Source: Gymnogyps californianus
Lineage: Eukaryota; Chordata; Aves; Accipitriformes; Cathartidae
DNA: 64,000 nucleotides
NCBI RefSeq assembly: GCF_018139145.2
Contig: NC_059478.1
Span: 27,931,001 to 27,995,000 of the forward strand
Direction of reading: 5' to 3'
The position numbers and the translations under genes were made by a program. Positions 24,049 through 52,867 of the stretch are shown one piece after another. The notes under the pieces were generated by a model that worked only from the letters and a program-made list of their open reading frames with translations, had not been told where the DNA came from and made no database searches. Numbering within the stretch: the first letter of the stretch is position 1; every line of letters begins with the position of its first letter.

Positions 24049-24297
24049 TGTCCTGGTTTCAGCTGGGATAGAGTTAACTCTCTTCTCCGTAGCTGGTACA
24101 GTGCTGGGTTTTGGATTTAGTGTGAAAATACTGTTGATAACACTCCAATGTTTTAGTTGTTGCTAAGTAGTGCTTACCTTAAACCAAGGACTTTTGAGTT
24201 TCCCATACTCTGCCAGCAAGCAGGTATGCAAGAAGCTGGGAGGGAGCAGAGCCGGGGCAGCTGATCTTAACTAGCCAACATGGAACGTCATGCCCAG

Positions 24298-24304
24298 TAT
24301 ATAA
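24298..24304 (+). promoter_or_regulatory. TATA box of the solo LTR
   Basis: TATATAA at the same place, within a conserved block, as the TATA boxes of the provirus LTRs. It predicts a plus-strand transcription start about 25-30 bases downstream, reading toward higher coordinates. Activity is an inference. Confidence 0.6.
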
Positions 24305-24477
24305 GCAGGGGGGAGTTGGCCAGGAGGGGTGGATCTTGGCTCTTGCATTGGTCAGTGGGTGGTGAGCAATTGCATTGTGCATCACTTGTCTTTTCTTTTT
24401 TTGTTGTTGTTGTTGTTGTATTCTTTTTCATTACAATTATTATTAGTTAGCGGTGTATTTTTATTTTTACTTTAGTT

Positions 24478-24483
24478 ATTAAA
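24478..24483 (+). terminator. Polyadenylation signal ATTAAA in the solo LTR
   Basis: ATTAAA lies at the position matching the ATTAAA signal in the provirus LTRs. It is the expected 3' processing signal at the R/U5 border of this LTR family. Confidence 0.55.
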
Positions 24484-24604
24484 CTGTTCTTATCTCAACC
24501 CATGAGTTTTACTTTTTTCCTTTCCTCCTCCCCACCCCACTGGGAGGGAGGAGGGGGAAGCAGCTGTGTGCTGCTCAGTTGCTGGCTGGGGTTAAACCAT
24601 GACA

Positions 24605-31204: not shown

Positions 31205-31640
31205 GTGCTGGAGCAGAGATTCCCCTGCAGCCCGTGGTGAAGACCATGGTGAGGCAGGCTGTCCCCCTGCAGCCCATGGAGGTCCACGGTGGAGCAGATA
31301 TCCACCTGCAGCCCATGGAGGACCCTACGCCAGAGCAGGTGGATGCCCAAAGGAGGCTGTGACCCCATGGGAAGCCCGTGCTGGAGCAGGCTCCTGGCAG
31401 GACCTGTGGACCTGTGGAGAGAGGAGCCCACGCTGAAGCAGGTTTGCTGGCAGGACTTGTGACCCCATGGGGGGCCCACGCTGGAGCAGTCTGTTCCTGA
31501 AGGACTGCACCCCATGGAAGGGACCCACGCTGGAGCAGTTCGTGAAGAACTGTAGCCCATGGGAAGGACTCACGTTGGAGAAGTTCGTGAAGGACTGTCT
31601 CCTGTGGGAGGGACCCCACGCTGGAGCAGGGGAAGAGCGT
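31205..31640 (+). repeat. Degenerate about 45-bp tandem repeats inside the solo LTR
   Basis: From about 31,510 the units read as roughly 45-base copies, each with a CACGCTGGAGCAG-type block, a TTCGTGAAG block and a CCCATGGGA block. More diverged and shorter units extend upstream to about 31,205. The array accounts for much of the extra length of this LTR compared with the 556-584 bp family. Confidence 0.7.
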
Positions 31641-45713: not shown

Positions 45714-45718
45714 TGATG
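45714..45718 (+). repeat. Target-site duplication of the provirus, left copy (TGATG)
   Basis: Identical to the 5 bases after the other LTR (52863-52867). A 5-bp duplication is usual for ERV-L-type integrases, while betaretroviruses usually make 6 bp and gammaretroviruses 4 bp. Confidence 0.9.
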
Positions 45719-46301
45719 TGTCGTGGTTTAACCCCAGCCGGCAGCTAAGCACCACGCAGCCGCTTGCTCACTGCCCCCCCACCCCTGGGATGGGGGAGAG
45801 AATCAGGAAAAAAACTCGTGAGTTGAGATAAAGACAGTTTAATAGGACAGAAAGGAATGAAAAACAATGATAATGATAATAATAATAATATGACAATAGC
45901 AATACTAAAAGAATTAAACTATACAAAGTAAGTGGTGCACAATGCAATTGCTCACCACTCGTTGACCGATGCCCAGTTAGTTCCCGAGCCGCGATCCCCC
46001 CTCCCAGTTAACTCCCCCCAGTTTATATACTGGGCATGATGTCATATGGTATGGAATAGCTCTTTGGCCAATTTGGGTCAGCTGTCCTGATGGTGTCCCC
46101 TCCCAGCTTCTTGTGCCCCTCCAGCCTTCTTGCTGCCTGGGGACGAGAAGCTGAAAAATCCTTGACTTAGTATAAACACTACTTAGCAACAACTAAAAAC
46201 ATCGGTGTGTTATCAACATTCTTTTCCTACTAAATCCAAAACACAGCACTATACCAGCTACTAGGAAGAAAATTAACTCTGTCCTAGCCGAAACCAGGAC
46301 A
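45719..46301 (-). repeat. 3' LTR of the provirus (583 bp)
   Basis: Read on the minus strand it begins TGTCCTGG and ends CCACGACA. It matches the 5' LTR base for base except for one A fewer in an A-run (46,154-46,158 region). It carries the same TATA box (46,022-46,029) and ATTAAA signal. An ATA/AAT trinucleotide microsatellite lies at about 45,868-45,890. Confidence 0.96.
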
Positions 46302-46305
46302 GTAT

Positions 46306-46318
46306 CCACCCCTTATTC
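46306..46318 (-). other. Polypurine tract next to the 3' LTR
   Basis: The minus strand reads GAATAAGGGGTGG just before the 3' LTR (with GATAC between), a purine-rich stretch where plus-strand DNA synthesis would be primed. It is short and interrupted by T, so the exact limits are uncertain. Confidence 0.5.
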
Positions 46319-46815
46319 TATACCATCTACATCATGTCCAGGTCCCACACTTCCCAATACATTTTCAATTAATCACCACCACTTTTGCTGCCTTTTAATA
46401 CATATACACACAGATATCATTCCCTTAATGTATAAGCCTTTACAATGTCCATTTAAAATGTTCGTTGAGTTAATTCAGTCCATGACTTTGGACTCCATCT
46501 ATCATAACAGTCTGTCTGGGCAGGAGGGATGGTGTGAAGTCCGCTCAGTCGGCAGAGCAGGATCCGGCTTTGGTGCAGTGCAGCGGGCAGATGACATTGG
46601 GCGCAGCAGGAGGATGGTGTGTAGTGTTGGATTGTTGCATGCTGCAGTCAGTCCTGGTTCCATCACTACTGCACTTCGCTCGGTTTTATCAAAGTTCATT
46701 CTTTATTAATCTAGATAATTCATACTGTAATACTGTTGATATAGCATATAACAACTATAGTAATGATGACATACAATGGCAGGGTTATATAGCAATTAAC
46801 ATAATACAATTTAAT
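46319..46815 (-). other. Non-coding stretch between integrase and the polypurine tract
   Basis: About 500 bases with no substantial open frame on the sense strand. This is where env would lie in a full retrovirus, but nothing resembling a surface or transmembrane protein is present. It holds an AATAAA word (minus strand, 46,702-46,707) and otherwise nothing recognised. It may carry cis-acting RNA signals or be the degraded remainder of lost sequence. Confidence 0.55.
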
Positions 46816-48444
46816 TCACTGGCTATTCTCACCTAAAATCAAATCCCCTTGAGGCACACATCGGACTTCCCCGTCCTTCCGCATCACCCACCAAGTGCAC
46901 CCAGGTCCTTGAGCAAAAGCAATCCCACGAATGGGTTTTCCTTTGCCTGAGGCAGGAGTAACCCAGACTGTCTTCCCTAGCATATTTTTTATGTGCACTA
47001 CAGGGACCTTATCCCCTTCTACAGTACGTAAAAGTTCTGATTGGGCAGGGCCAGCCCGATTGGCAGATCCTCTAGTGTTGACTAACCAGGTGGCCTTTGC
47101 TAAATGTGTATCCCAATGTTTAAAGGTCCCACCACCCATTGCTTTCAATGTAGTCTTTAACAATCCATTGTATCGCTCGATTTTCCCGGAGGCTGGTGCA
47201 TGATAGGGGATGTGATACACCCACTCAATGCCGTGCTCTTTGGCCCAGGTGTCTATGAGATTGTTTCTGAAATGTGTCCCGTTGTCTGACTCAATTCTTT
47301 CTGGGGTACCATGTCGCCATAAGATTTGCTTCTCAAGGCCCAGGATAGTGTTCCGGGCGGTGGCATGGGGCACGGGATATGTTTCCAGCCAGCCGGTGGT
47401 TGCTTCTACCATTGTAAGCACATAGCGCTTGCCTTGGCGGGTTTGTGGGAGTGTGATGTAGTCAATCTGCCAGGCCTCTCCATATTTATATTTCAGCCAT
47501 CGTCCCCCATACCAAAGAGGCTTTAACCGCTTGGCTTGCTTAATTGCAGCGCATGTTTCACATTCATGGATGACCTGTGCGATAGTGTCCATGGTCAAAT
47601 CCACCCCTCGATCACGAGCCCATCTATATGTTGCATCTCTTCCCTGATGACCTGAAGTGTCATGGGCCCACCGAGCTAAAAATAATTCACCCTTATGTTG
47701 CCAATCCAAATCCACCTGAGCTACTTCAATCCTAGCAGCCTTGTCTACCTGTTGATTGTTTTGATGTTCTTCAGTGGCCCGGCTCTTGGGTACGTGGGCA
47801 TCTACATGACGTACTTTCACAACCAAGTTCTCTAGCCGGGCAGCAATATCTTGCCACAATGGGGCAGCCCAGATGGGTTTACCTCTGCGTTGCCAGTTAC
47901 TCCGCTTCCATTGCTGCAACCACCCCCACAGAGCATTTGCCACCATCCATGAATCGGTATAGAGATAAAGTATTGGCCATTTTTCTCGTTCAGCCATGTC
48001 TAAAGCCAGCTGGATGGCTTTCACCTCTGCAAACTGACTCGATTCACCTTCTCCTTCTGCAGTTTCTGCAACTTGTCGTATAGGACTCCATACAGCCGCC
48101 TTCCACCTCCGATGCTTTCCTACAATGCGACAGGACCCATCAGTGAACAGGGCATATTGCCTCTCATTTTCTGGCAGTTTATTATACAGTGGGGCCTCTT
48201 CAGCACGCGTTACCTCCTCCTCTGGTGATATTCCAAAATCTTTGCCTTCTGGCCAGTCTGTGATCACTTCCAGAATTCCTGGGCGACTAAGGTTTCCTAT
48301 TCGACTTCGTTGTGTGATCAGTGCAACCCACTTACTCCACGTAGCATCAGTTGCATGATGTGTAGAAGGGACCTTCCCTTTGAACATCCAGCCTAACACT
48401 GGCAGTCGGGGTGCCAACAGGAGCTGTGTTTCAGTACCAACCAC
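46816..48444 (-). CDS. pol: pol, 3' part: RNase H and integrase
   Basis: The 542-codon frame given here begins at a GTG that is not a true start; the same frame is open upstream to about 48,58x. It must be reached from the RT part across a frame change. RNase H (about residues 95-240) shows D102 in TDGS, E140, D164 in YTDS and D234, the usual acidic set. Integrase follows: zinc domain H261-x4-H266 and C295-x2-C298, then the catalytic core D328 (WQIDY), D387 (ESDNG) and E423 (GKIERYNG) with 35 residues between the last two, a DD35E arrangement. A C-terminal DNA-binding region with WVTP and CTWWV follows and ends at a normal stop. No dUTPase domain is seen. All catalytic residues are present, so this part appears undamaged. 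Role by family: RNA removal during reverse transcription and integration into chromatin. Confidence 0.95.
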   Translation of the reverse strand: MVGTETQLLLAPRLPVLGWMFKGKVPSTHHATDATWSKWVALITQRSRIGNLSRPGILEVITDWPEGKDFGISPEEEVTRAEEAPLYNKLPENERQYALFTDGSCRIVGKHRRWKAAVWSPIRQVAETAEGEGESSQFAEVKAIQLALDMAEREKWPILYLYTDSWMVANALWGWLQQWKRSNWQRRGKPIWAAPLWQDIAARLENLVVKVRHVDAHVPKSRATEEHQNNQQVDKAARIEVAQVDLDWQHKGELFLARWAHDTSGHQGRDATYRWARDRGVDLTMDTIAQVIHECETCAAIKQAKRLKPLWYGGRWLKYKYGEAWQIDYITLPQTRQGKRYVLTMVEATTGWLETYPVPHATARNTILGLEKQILWRHGTPERIESDNGTHFRNNLIDTWAKEHGIEWVYHIPYHAPASGKIERYNGLLKTTLKAMGGGTFKHWDTHLAKATWLVNTRGSANRAGPAQSELLRTVEGDKVPVVHIKNMLGKTVWVTPASGKGKPIRGIAFAQGPGCTWWVMRKDGEVRCVPQGDLILGENSQ

Positions 48445-48542
48445 TTCTGAAGCAGCTCGAACTCCTTCATATGCTGCTAATATCTCCTTTTCAGTTGGAG
48501 TATAGCGGGCCTCAGATCCTCGATATCCCCGACTCCAAAACC

Positions 48543-50000
48543 CTAGAGGTCGACCTCGGGTCTCCCAGGTGCTTTCTGCCAGAGGCTCCAGGTAGGGCCA
48601 TTCTCCCCGGCTGCGGTGTAGAGCACATTTTTAATATCTGGTCCTGCCCGGACTGGCCCAAGGGCTACTGCATGAACTATCTCCCGTTTAATCTGTTCAA
48701 AGGCTTGTTGTTGTTCAGGGCCCCATTTAAAATCGTTCTTCTTCCGGGTCACTTGATAGAGAGGGCTTACAATCAGACTATAATTTGGAATGTGCATTCT
48801 CCAAAAACCTACAACACCTAAGAAAGCTTGTGTTTCCTGTTTACTAGTCGGTGGGGACATAGCTGCTATTTTGTTGATCACATCCATTGGGATATGACGA
48901 CGTCCGTCTTGCCATTTTATTCCTAAAAACTGAATCTCCTGTGCGGGTCCCTTCACCTTACTTTGTTTTATGGCAAAACCGGCTTTCAGAAGAATTTGGA
49001 TTATTTTCTCCCCTTTCTCAAAAACTTCTTCTGCTGTGTTGCCCCATACGATGATATCATCAATGTACTGCAGGTGTTCTGGAGCTCCACCTTTTTCTAG
49101 TGCATTTTGGATCAGTCCATGGCAAATGGTGGGGCTGTGTTTCCACCCCTGGGGCAGTCGATTCCAGGTGTACTGGACGCCCCTCCAAGTGAAAGCAAAC
49201 TGTGGCCGGCATTCTGCTGCCAAAGGGATTGAGAAAAATGCATTGGCAATATCAATTGTGGCGTACCACTTGGCTGCCTTTGACTCCAGTTCATATTGAA
49301 GTTCTAGCATGTCTGGTACAGCAGCACTCAGCGGTGGCGTGACTTCATTCAGGCCACGATAGTCTACTGTTAGTCTCCATTCTCCATTAGACTTTCGCAC
49401 TGGCCATATGGGGCTGTTAAAGGGTGAGCGAGTCCTGCTGATTACTCCTTGGCTCTCCAGTCGATGAATCAGGTTATGGATGGGAATCAGGGAGTCTCGG
49501 TTGGTGCGATATTGCCGCCGGTGCACCGTTGTGGTAGCGATCGGCACCTGTTGTTCTTCAACCCTCAGCAACCCCACAACCGAAGGGTCCTCAGAGAGAC
49601 CAGGTAAGGTGGACAACTGTTCAATTCCCTCTGTCTCCAAGGCAGCTATACCAAAAGCCCACCGATACCCCTTTGGGTCTTTAAAATACCCTCTCCTGAG
49701 ATAGTCTATGCCAAGGATGCATGGGGCCTCTGGGCCAGTCACAATGGGGTGTTTCTGCCACTCATTCCCAGTTAGGCTTATTTCAGCCTCCAATACAGTT
49801 AGCTGTTGAGATCCCCCTGTCACACCAGAGATACAGATGGGTTCTGCCCCTTTATAACTTGATGGCATTAGAGTACACTGTGCACCGGTATCCACTAGAG
49901 CCTTATACTCCTGTGGGTGTGATGTGCCAGGCCATCGAATCCACACAGTCCAATAAACCCGGTTGTCCCTTTCCTCCACCTGGCTGGAGGCAGGGCCCCT
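48543..50000 (-). CDS. pol: pro-pol, 5' part: protease and reverse transcriptase
   Basis: This frame directly continues gag after the amber codon at 50,001-50,003; the first 7 codons after the stop have no ATG, so readthrough is the likely route of expression. Residues below are counted from a GTG codon at 49,979. Aspartic protease: D30 in LVDTGAQ, with a CILGIDYL segment near 87-94 typical of the second half of retropepsins. Reverse transcriptase: about 165-400, with SPIWPVRK, first catalytic D243 (ATIDIANAF), LPQG at 275-278, YIDD at 305-308 holding the other two aspartates, and an LGVVGFWR thumb/connection motif at 387-394. The frame then stops at a TAG (48,543-48,545) just before RNase H because of a 1-base frame change around 48,555-48,575, next to a short G run. 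The RT would therefore be made without RNase H and integrase from this copy. Confidence 0.94.
   Translation of the reverse strand, partial: RGPASSQVEERDNRVYWTVWIRWPGTSHPQEYKALVDTGAQCTLMPSSYKGAEPICISGVTGGSQQLTVLEAEISLTGNEWQKHPIVTGPEAPCILGIDYLRRGYFKDPKGYRWAFGIAALETEGIEQLSTLPGLSEDPSVVGLLRVEEQQVPIATTTVHRRQYRTNRDSLIPIHNLIHRLESQGVISRTRSPFNSPIWPVRKSNGEWRLTVDYRGLNEVTPPLSAAVPDMLELQYELESKAAKWYATIDIANAFFSIPLAAECRPQFAFTWRGVQYTWNRLPQGWKHSPTICHGLIQNALEKGGAPEHLQYIDDIIVWGNTAEEVFEKGEKIIQILLKAGFAIKQSKVKGPAQEIQFLGIKWQDGRRHIPMDVINKIAAMSPPTSKQETQAFLGVVGFWRMHIPNYSLIVSPLYQVTRKKNDFKWGPEQQQAFEQIKREIVHAVALGPVRAGPDIKNVLYTAAGENGPTWSLWQKAPGRPEVDL
48555..48580 (-). other. Frame change that splits pol
   Basis: The RT frame closes at 48,543, while the frame carrying RNase H and integrase is open from about 48,585 downward. 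The two overlap, and ERV-L-like residues switch from one frame to the other within this short stretch, which holds a run of three G on the minus strand (48,564-48,566). The simplest reading is the loss of one base. An assembly or sequencing error in a homopolymer is the main alternative; a programmed frameshift is less likely at this domain border. Confidence 0.75.
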
Positions 50001-50003
50001 CTA
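50001..50003 (-). promoter_or_regulatory. In-frame amber codon between gag and pro-pol
   Basis: TAG followed by AGG GGC CCT, with gag and protease in the same frame and no other stop between them. This is the layout used by gammaretroviruses, in which a few per cent of ribosomes read through the stop to make Gag-Pol. Readthrough here is inferred from layout; no downstream pseudoknot was worked out. Confidence 0.7.
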
Positions 50004-52157
50004 ATCCTGGTCAGAGTATTTGTTACTCACTTCTTGTAAAAATGACTTAGAGGTCCCTTCAAGAGGGTCAGAAGCCCTTCTACTTTGTCTGGCAACCGGA
50101 GCGGCATCTTTCCTGGAAGAATCCCCTTTTCTGGTTGTTTTTCCTTTCAATTCACGTACCCGTGCATCTAGGACTGAGGTAGGTTTTCTATCCCACTTCC
50201 TCATGTCCTCTCCGTGGTCACGCAAGTAAAACCACAGGGTACCCCGTGGTGTATACCTCCTATATTCTCTCTCTTGATCAGAGGAATGCTCACTCCTAAT
50301 AGCTGAGATATTGGTCTGTACAGGTGGGGAGTAGGACTTTTCGATCAGTTCAATCAGTTTTTCGGACTTCTCGGACAATTTTTCCACAGCTGAGACACAG
50401 GCTCGTAGGGATGAAGAGAGATTTTCTTCATATTGCCGGAGTTGGCGAGCCATTTCATCCACTGTCGGTGCCTCTTCGTCTTTCCAAGTTAGTACTGCCA
50501 ATGGGTTGGCATATGATGATGGTGCGCTCCGTACAAACTTCCGCCACATGGGTCGTGTGCATTGAACTTCATCTGGATCTTTGGGTAATTGTAAACTGTC
50601 CGGGTCATAATAAATCATCTCTAGCACGGCTAATTCCCTCAGGTACTGAATACCTCTTTCCATGGTACTCCACTTGCCTGGTTGACATATAACATCTTCC
50701 TTGAAGGGATACCTTTCCTTCACACTTGACAGGAGTCGCCTCCAGAGGCTGAGGGCTTGTGTCCCTTTTCCAATCGCCTTATCAATGCCACCTTCCCTAG
50801 CAAGTGATCCTAGCTGCTTGGCTTCCTTACCCTCTAATTCCAGGCTACTAGCCCCATTGTCCCAGCATCGGAGCAGCCAGGTGATAATGTGCTCACCTGG
50901 ACGACGGCTGAAATCTTTTCGCATATCCCGCAGCTCACTCAGGGATAGAGATCGGGTGATTACTTCTGGTTCTGCCTCTTCCTCCTGTTCTCGTGATGGC
51001 CCTGGTTCGTCTTCATCCTTCGCTAAACGAGCTGATTTTTTTGTATATTTCTTCTTCTGTATAGGGGCGACTGATACTGGCACAGATTGGTTCTCTGGTT
51101 CAGCCGCAGCGCCTGTCGCAGGGGTCGGAGTAGCCGCAGCGCCTGTCACAGGGGTCAGAGTAGCCGCAGCGCCTGTCGCAGGGGTCGGAGTAGCCGCAGC
51201 GCCTGTCGCAGGGGTCGGAGTAGCCGCAGCGCCTGTCGCAGGGGTCGGAGTAGCCGCAGCGCCTGTCGCAGGGGTCGGAGTAGCCGCAGCGCCTGTCGCA
51301 GGGGTCGGAGTAGCCGCAGTGTCTGTTGTCGGGGCTGGAGTAGCCGCCTTGCCTGTCGCTAGGGTTGCAGTAGCTGCAGTGTCTGTTGCAGGGGTTGGAG
51401 TAGCCGCAGTATCTGTCGGTCTGTTTTCCCTCCCTTCCCCCTGAGGGTGCTGCATAGTATTGAGCAGTGTTTGGTAGATACTAGCCAGGGCCCAGCACAG
51501 TGCGATAGGTTGTGCCTCTTTGGAATAGCCACAGCATTTTCCTTTCAGATAATCTATCATTTTATCAGGGTCCTGTAGTTGTTCAGGAGTGAAGTTCCAA
51601 ACCATTGGAGGTGAGAAGTTCTCTAGATACCTGCCCATTTTCTCCCACATGCCATGCCACCCATGGTTATTAAGCCTCGGGGCAGATTTCCGAAAGGTAT
51701 TCTTAAACAGTTGTTTAACCTTAAACAAGGCCTGGAACACATTCAGGAGACATAACAATAGGAACATGCTAGTTTGAACATCCCAAGGATATTCAAAATT
51801 CTCAAGAGCCACTGTAATTTGCCTGGAGGAGAAGGGGAAGGTGAAGAAATGTGTCTCCCCTGTGGCTTGGCTCTCCGATGAGAAAAGGTACAAGGTGTAA
51901 TTATTAATAGTTTCTGATAGACGGCTCCCGAAGTACGGAGGTGATGGCAATGCTGAGTACAAATACCAGATTAATTCCACAACCAGCAATTCTATCATAT
52001 CATAAGCCAGTGTTACAAAGTACAACAACATGATAACTCTGGCCCAGTTCCCACGGGTGATAAACAGCACAACAGGGAGCATATACTGCAAGTAAGGTAT
52101 TACATAACGCACCTTTAAGAACAAGTGCACCAACTTTGAGAGCAAATACATCAACAT
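50001..52157 (-). CDS. gag: gag, 718 residues with hydrophobic N-terminus and tandem repeat
   Basis: Start chosen at the first ATG (52,155-52,157), which has A at -3; four upstream codons are also open but begin with TTG. Residues about 3-35 and 40-68 are strongly hydrophobic, and a third hydrophobic segment lies at about 131-146, suggesting membrane targeting. A WHGMWEKMGRYLENF region follows, then about 247-351 is a low-complexity array of ten-residue units of the PTPATGAAAT type, then a basic/acidic linker. The C-terminal half (about 390-700) holds a helical region with LSLSELRDMRKDF, LAREGGIDKAIGKG and a probable coiled coil at about 565-605 (YEENLSSSLRACVSAVEKL). No CCHC zinc knuckle is present, as in ERV-L and spumavirus Gag. 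It ends at TAG, in frame with protease. Role by family: particle assembly and RNA packaging. No internal stops or frameshifts are visible. Confidence 0.9.
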   Translation of the reverse strand: MLMYLLSKLVHLFLKVRYVIPYLQYMLPVVLFITRGNWARVIMLLYFVTLAYDMIELLVVELIWYLYSALPSPPYFGSRLSETINNYTLYLFSSESQATGETHFFTFPFSSRQITVALENFEYPWDVQTSMFLLLCLLNVFQALFKVKQLFKNTFRKSAPRLNNHGWHGMWEKMGRYLENFSPPMVWNFTPEQLQDPDKMIDYLKGKCCGYSKEAQPIALCWALASIYQTLLNTMQHPQGEGRENRPTDTAATPTPATDTAATATLATGKAATPAPTTDTAATPTPATGAAATPTPATGAAATPTPATGAAATPTPATGAAATPTPATGAAATLTPVTGAAATPTPATGAAAEPENQSVPVSVAPIQKKKYTKKSARLAKDEDEPGPSREQEEEAEPEVITRSLSLSELRDMRKDFSRRPGEHIITWLLRCWDNGASSLELEGKEAKQLGSLAREGGIDKAIGKGTQALSLWRRLLSSVKERYPFKEDVICQPGKWSTMERGIQYLRELAVLEMIYYDPDSLQLPKDPDEVQCTRPMWRKFVRSAPSSYANPLAVLTWKDEEAPTVDEMARQLRQYEENLSSSLRACVSAVEKLSEKSEKLIELIEKSYSPPVQTNISAIRSEHSSDQEREYRRYTPRGTLWFYLRDHGEDMRKWDRKPTSVLDARVRELKGKTTRKGDSSRKDAAPVARQSRRASDPLEGTSKSFLQEVSNKYSDQD
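51103..51418 (-). repeat. 30-bp coding tandem array inside gag
   Basis: About ten and a half copies of a 30-bp unit that keep the reading frame and encode ten-residue units rich in A, T, P and G. The copies at 51,163-51,312 are nearly identical, while those from about 51,313 upward have several substitutions. Near-identity suggests recent expansion by slippage or unequal exchange, so copy number may vary between alleles and between copies of the element. Confidence 0.9.
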
Positions 52158-52252
52158 TGTGACCAGCAACTATTGAACTAATATAATGTATGTTTATAAC
52201 AAATTTGTTCTAACACATTTCAGTCAGATTTGTCGTTATCTCAACCCGTTGT
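52158..52252 (-). other. Short 5' leader of the provirus
   Basis: Only 95 bases separate the primer binding site from the gag ATG. It begins GCACAACGGG-like after the binding site and is otherwise AT-rich. Any packaging signal must lie here or within gag. No splice donor was identified, consistent with an element that has no env to splice. Confidence 0.6.
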
Positions 52253-52270
52253 GCCCCACGTTGGGCGCCA
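52253..52270 (-). other. Primer binding site, tRNA-Lys(1,2) type
   Basis: The minus strand reads TGGCGCCCAACGTGGGGC, which is the 18-base complement of the 3' end of vertebrate tRNA-Lys(1,2), the primer used for instance by Mason-Pfizer monkey virus. It lies 8 bases inside the 5' LTR. The match looks perfect, so minus-strand DNA priming should be intact. Confidence 0.93.
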
Positions 52271-52397
52271 AAAAGGACTGTCGTGGTTTAACCCCAGCCG
52301 GCAGCTAAGCACCACGCAGCCGCTTGCTCACTGCCCCCCCACCCCTGGGATGGGGGAGAGAATCAGGAAAAAAACTCGTGAGTTGAGATAAAGACAG

Positions 52398-52403
52398 TTT
52401 AAT
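52398..52403 (-). terminator. Polyadenylation signal ATTAAA in the LTR
   Basis: ATTAAA on the minus strand within TATTAAACTG, about 185 bases after the TATA box and conserved in the solo LTR. The equivalent copy in the 3' LTR would direct the end of the viral transcript. Confidence 0.6.
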
Positions 52404-52581
52404 AGGACAGAAAGGAATGAAAAACAATGATAATGATAATAATAATAATATGACAATAGCAATACTAAAAGAATTAAACTATACAAAGTAAGTGGTGCAC
52501 AATGCAATTGCTCACCACTCGTTGACCGATGCCCAGTTAGTTCCCGAGCCGCGATCCCCCCTCCCAGTTAACTCCCCCCAG

Positions 52582-52589
52582 TTTATATA
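52582..52589 (-). promoter_or_regulatory. TATA box of the 5' LTR
   Basis: TATATAAA on the minus strand, about 275 bases into the LTR, in the block CCCAGTATATAAACTGGG that is conserved in the solo LTR at 24 kb. It would start the genomic RNA toward lower coordinates. Confidence 0.7.
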
Positions 52590-52862
52590 CTGGGCATGAT
52601 GTCATATGGTATGGAATAGCTCTTTGGCCAATTTGGGTCAGCTGTCCTGATGGTGTCCCCTCCCAGCTTCTTGTGCCCCTCCAGCCTTCTTGCTGCCTGG
52701 GGACGAGAAGCTGAAAAAATCCTTGACTTAGTATAAACACTACTTAGCAACAACTAAAAACATCGGTGTGTTATCAACATTCTTTTCCTACTAAATCCAA
52801 AACACAGCACTATACCAGCTACTAGGAAGAAAATTAACTCTGTCCTAGCCGAAACCAGGACA

Positions 52863-52867
52863 TGATG
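52863..52867 (+). repeat. Target-site duplication of the provirus, right copy (TGATG)
   Basis: Exact match to 45714-45718, directly after the terminal CA on the plus strand. It shows that the two LTRs belong to one insertion and that no rearrangement has joined different copies. Confidence 0.9.

Follow-up and report, generated by a model that had tools for sequence, protein, structure and literature searches.

A complete provirus on the minus strand of a 64,000-nucleotide stretch of the Gymnogyps californianus genome (the window) raises the question of what kind of element it is, how recently it was inserted and whether it differs from its relatives in the same genome. An earlier note on this DNA had described it as a very young, almost intact provirus without env, with a single frame change in pol as its only visible defect. 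We read it, with a probability of about 0.9, as a recently integrated class III (ERVL-type) bird endogenous retrovirus (ERV) belonging to a family of env-less, intracellular retrotransposons. The insertion covers positions 45714-52867 including its target site duplications (Table 1). Its two long terminal repeats (LTRs) align over 583 matching columns with no substitution and one length difference, which falls within a run of T on the sense strand. The LTR identity save for one homopolymer base, the perfect duplications and the open gag and integrase frames described previously were thus all recovered, and chance does not produce a pair of TG...CA-ended direct repeats of 583 bases flanked by duplications.

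With no substitution among 583 sites, the divergence has an upper bound (95%) of 0.0051 per site, in agreement with the youth that had been proposed. Assuming between 1.9e-9 and 3.4e-9 substitutions per site per year, the copy is younger than about 0.76-1.35 million years. The 400-base left flank, the side that was searched, matches the 1.24 Gb genome assembly once, giving no sign of a duplicate or of a second haplotype contig on that side. Such recent movement leads one to expect polymorphism within the species, and it is plausible that this insertion is itself polymorphic.

Other copies in the genome are equally young, however, and what had been singled out as "very young" is therefore no distinction of the window copy. 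When the best 40 of 3287 LTR candidates were scored (identities being high by this selection), all 38 full-length LTR places besides its own two were 99-100% identical, a count that omits two short rows from one of them; the near-identical copies that the note had proposed to look for do exist. Nineteen other proviruses, the best non-self gag matches (best 40 of 1196 candidates scored), were traced to both ends. Two LTRs are present in 18 of these 19, with matching 5-base flanks in 13 of the 18. Counting substitutions alone and ignoring gaps, of which one pair has as many as 7, the LTR pairs of the 13 flank-matched copies differ at 0-19 positions with a median of 1, three having none and 11 having at most two, and those of the five copies without matching flanks at 0, 2, 7, 37 and 55. 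The eight best LTR loci that were opened comprise the two of the window copy, one within another provirus and five solo LTRs with duplications (5/6 of the non-self loci). The element is another copy of an already known kind, one of at least a dozen of similar youth in this genome, and taken singly it is an ordinary insertion. If the provirus were older and gene conversion had homogenized its LTRs, donors would have been at hand, near-identical LTRs being plentiful in this genome. Conversion would nevertheless need to have hit nearly all copies, given the near-zero distances of 11 of the 13 flank-matched pairs, and it fits poorly with perfect duplications, a single-copy left flank and open frames for gag, reverse transcriptase (RT) and integrase; we regard it as very improbable.

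The frame change in pol lies between RT and RNase H, where two frames abut exactly and where the pol of relatives crosses the border unbroken. Of 39 places chosen for comparison of this zone, one ran past a contig end and 38 provided a piece, 34 of which could be matched: 31 keep a single frame throughout, although a stop occurs within four of the 31. A later probe search, in which the best 40 of 1321 candidates were scored, yielded 29 non-self loci, 28 of them in one frame and four with a stop. Copies with a continuous pol frame thus exist in the genome, and frame changes of their own occur in 3/34 and 1/29 of the other copies in the two sets. The change of the window copy is absent from all 63 pieces that could be aligned (of 67), which represent 52 places since 11 are common to both sets by coordinates, and a 41-mer spanning the junction occurs, among the scored copies (L029-L115), at its own locus alone. 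It is therefore private as far as seen, and represents either a real mutation or an assembly error. Collapse or polishing during assembly, which would make the LTRs alike as well as introduce the frame change, is a possibility of some weight, albeit clearly the less probable one and mainly for the frame change: this occurs in no other aligned copy, the LTRs differ by a homopolymer length, and both fit read errors. The LTR identity is less well explained in this way, and the single left flank in the genome, the 37 Mb contig and the lack of any N in the window speak against it. A non-autonomous copy from a defective sub-lineage, its frame change being spread along by the enzymes of others, would account for such a change in an otherwise intact copy, yet with the change in none of the 63 pieces and the junction 41-mer confined to one locus among the scored copies this is the least probable of all the explanations considered. 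The description "almost intact" is supported, this one frame change apart.

The UAG that separates gag from pol, which might be taken for a second defect, is found in 20/20 copies examined (self included). In the pol frame, the first methionine comes after the DTG motif of the protease. Initiation there would lose this motif, which makes it likely that gag-pol is produced by read-through of the UAG. No unusual fold was detected in the 80 bases behind the UAG. Suppression of a stop codon has been proposed for gag-pol of the chicken element OVEX1 (PMC2717909).

The family assignment rests on several lines of evidence. RT, RNase H and the integrase core pass the Pfam cut-offs, and the matches to protease families and to the zinc-binding domain of integrase fall just under them. 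Of the 120 listed pol matches, those that are named come from birds, which makes the host a bird. Against solved structures the integrase is closest to PFV integrase, which scores 59 bits, the runner-up kind reaching 34 bits. The RT matches Pr125Pol, which we take to be foamy, with 157.5 bits and p80 RT, presumably gammaretroviral, with 153.4 bits, a small margin. Judged from pairwise matches, pol thus appears related to that of spumaviruses, clearly so for the integrase, with RT nearly tied with the gammaretroviral type. Target duplications of 5 bases were found for the window copy, 13/18 other two-LTR copies and five solo LTRs; this length is a criterion for the ERV3/ERVL group of birds in PMC6523648. 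The gag of the window copy has no match in Pfam at E<=1, zinc fingers included, and no zinc finger is visible in its translation. In the 514 bases from integrase to the 3' LTR the frames tested gave no Pfam match, of env or otherwise, and no dUTPase family was detected at E<=1 in either part of pol or in tested frames behind it. A PFV-nearest integrase, 5-base duplications and the lack of both zinc finger and env together fit a class III, ERVL element. The description as env-less accordingly holds for this copy, although the lack of env is a trait of the family and not damage to one member. Among the relatives, a 1017-residue pol of Grus japonensis (P0008) is unbroken and 92% identical to that of the window copy, and the C-terminal part of gag shares 78% identity with Grus P0126, 62% with Anas P0167 and 99% with P0124. 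One protein labelled Klebsiella pneumoniae (P0223) is 67% identical to the window gag over 71%, and probably represents host contamination in a bacterial assembly.

Nine of the 18 other copies have LTRs only about 88% identical to those of the window copy. In the four copies that were profiled, the difference is concentrated in the first 300 LTR bases (the U3 or promoter region, with TATATAA at position 273 of the 3' LTR), with 64-94% identity per 50 bases, and the remainder of the LTR is 94-100% identical; in two compared copies the body is 94-100% identical up to the LTR. This second U3 type, at LTR positions of about 1-300, was noted at loci L071, L075, L082 and L085, on a nearly identical body. 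LTR pairs without substitution occur in both U3 types. The pattern suggests modular exchange of promoters. A foamy-related, env-less element was thus active very recently in this bird, with two U3 types on one body.

The life cycle that these features bring to mind would begin with LTR-driven RNA primed by a lysine tRNA, gag being made alone and gag-pol by UAG read-through. Particles would form inside the cell, with gag held at the membrane of the endoplasmic reticulum (ER) by its hydrophobic N-terminus, and the cDNA would be integrated with 5-base duplications, many copies ending up as solo LTRs. The window copy may have been made by its own enzymes before the frame change, or by those of another copy.

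The gag N-terminus is the least expected feature of the element, and the part most deserving of specialist study. It is hydrophobic, with an N-glycosylation sequon kept in 15/17 rows, and is predicted to look as if it were an ER membrane anchor. Further downstream, the 30-base tandem repeat of gag differs in length between proviruses. Gag of this family is also seen at the end of predicted host proteins. In Buteo, Accipiter and Tyto it terminates predicted isoforms of USP4 (P0140, P0172, P0154), with the same bridging residues before gag and with gags that form one supported clade, perhaps reflecting one old insertion with a retained open frame. In two parrots and three owl genera, predicted isoforms of AMFR (P0197, P0198, P0217, P0224, P0226, P0228) likewise end in gag, joined behind the same AMFR residue; the tree fits either one or two insertions, and a stretch of about 20 kb downstream of the corresponding AMFR exon yielded no gag in the condor genome. 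It is tempting, at somewhat less than even odds, to combine these observations: gag of this avian ERVL family would start with a conserved multi-pass membrane domain of ~155 residues with a glycosylated loop in the ER lumen, which would stand in for a myristate or for a partner envelope protein and place particle assembly on the ER, and gag joined with open frames to USP4 (hawks, barn owl) and AMFR (owls, parrots) in predicted isoforms would maybe have been co-opted in the manner of Fv1.

Table 1. Features of the provirus, in window coordinates.
Feature	Positions	Strand	Remarks
Target site duplication TGATG	45714-45718	.	3' side of element
3' LTR, TG...CA	45719-46301	-	583 bases
Candidate polypurine tract	46305-46314	-	Short purine-rich run before 3' LTR, predicted from sequence
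pol part 2: RNase H and integrase	46816-48630	-	
Zone of pol frame change	48543-48630	-	
pol part 1: protease and RT	48543-50000	-	Protease: DTG motif, Pfam matches below cut-off
UAG between gag and pol	50001-50003	-	One frame on both sides
gag open frame	50001-52169	-	722 codons
gag, Met5 of open frame to UAG stop	50001-52157	-	Relatives P0124 and P0125 start at same Met
gag C-terminal part	50004-51017	-	Weakly capsid-like fold
30-base tandem repeat in gag	51102-51409	-	In frame, A/P/T-rich
Hydrophobic gag N-terminus	51696-52157	-	aa 5-158
Sequon in gag N-terminus	51894-51902	-	aa 90-92
Primer binding site	52253-52270	-	8 bases after 5' LTR; presumably tRNA-Lys type
5' LTR, TG...CA	52279-52862	-	584 bases
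Target site duplication TGATG	52863-52867	.	5' side of element

Elsewhere in the window, a solo LTR of a related family (24049-24604, 71% identical, duplication TGGGG) lies in the opposite orientation. Tandem-repeat arrays with units of 39-49 bases occupy 31209-31629, and no Pfam family matches the longest open frame that spans them.

Among known systems, mouse IAP elements likewise lack env, and their ER targeting signal sits on gag; unlike the window element they belong to class II (betaretrovirus-type), and the predicted membrane part of the window gag is longer. Gain of an ER targeting signal by IAP is described in PMC4643047. If confirmed, a membrane-anchored gag in the element studied here would constitute a second case, independent of IAP, of an env-less retrovirus that has settled inside the cell. 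HERV-L and MuERV-L have primer sites of the leucine tRNA type, whereas that of the window copy is, we assume, of the lysine type. MuERV-L is also env-deficient (PMC5930517), and according to PMC2717909 the gag of MuERV-L and HERV-L has no zinc finger, as here, and MuERV-L carries a dUTPase, of which none was found in the window element. The same paper portrays OVEX1 as sharing a single frame between gag and pol and as lacking both zinc finger and dUTPase, like the window element, and as differing from it by a third, env-like frame (ORF3). The same layout is shown by TguERVL2_I and TguERVL2_I_Ucy, which PMC6523648 presents as ERVL elements with two long frames in one reading frame, RT-RH-IN domains, no intact env and an unusual stretch in gag, all as in the window element; TguERVL2_I_Ucy of songbirds was recently active and survives mostly as solo LTRs. 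The likeness is one of layout, at a length of 6.4 kb against 7.1 kb here. The unusual gag stretch of TguERVL2 is read in that paper as herpesvirus glycoprotein C-like, whereas the window gag has no Pfam match and contains a 30-base tandem repeat of varying length.
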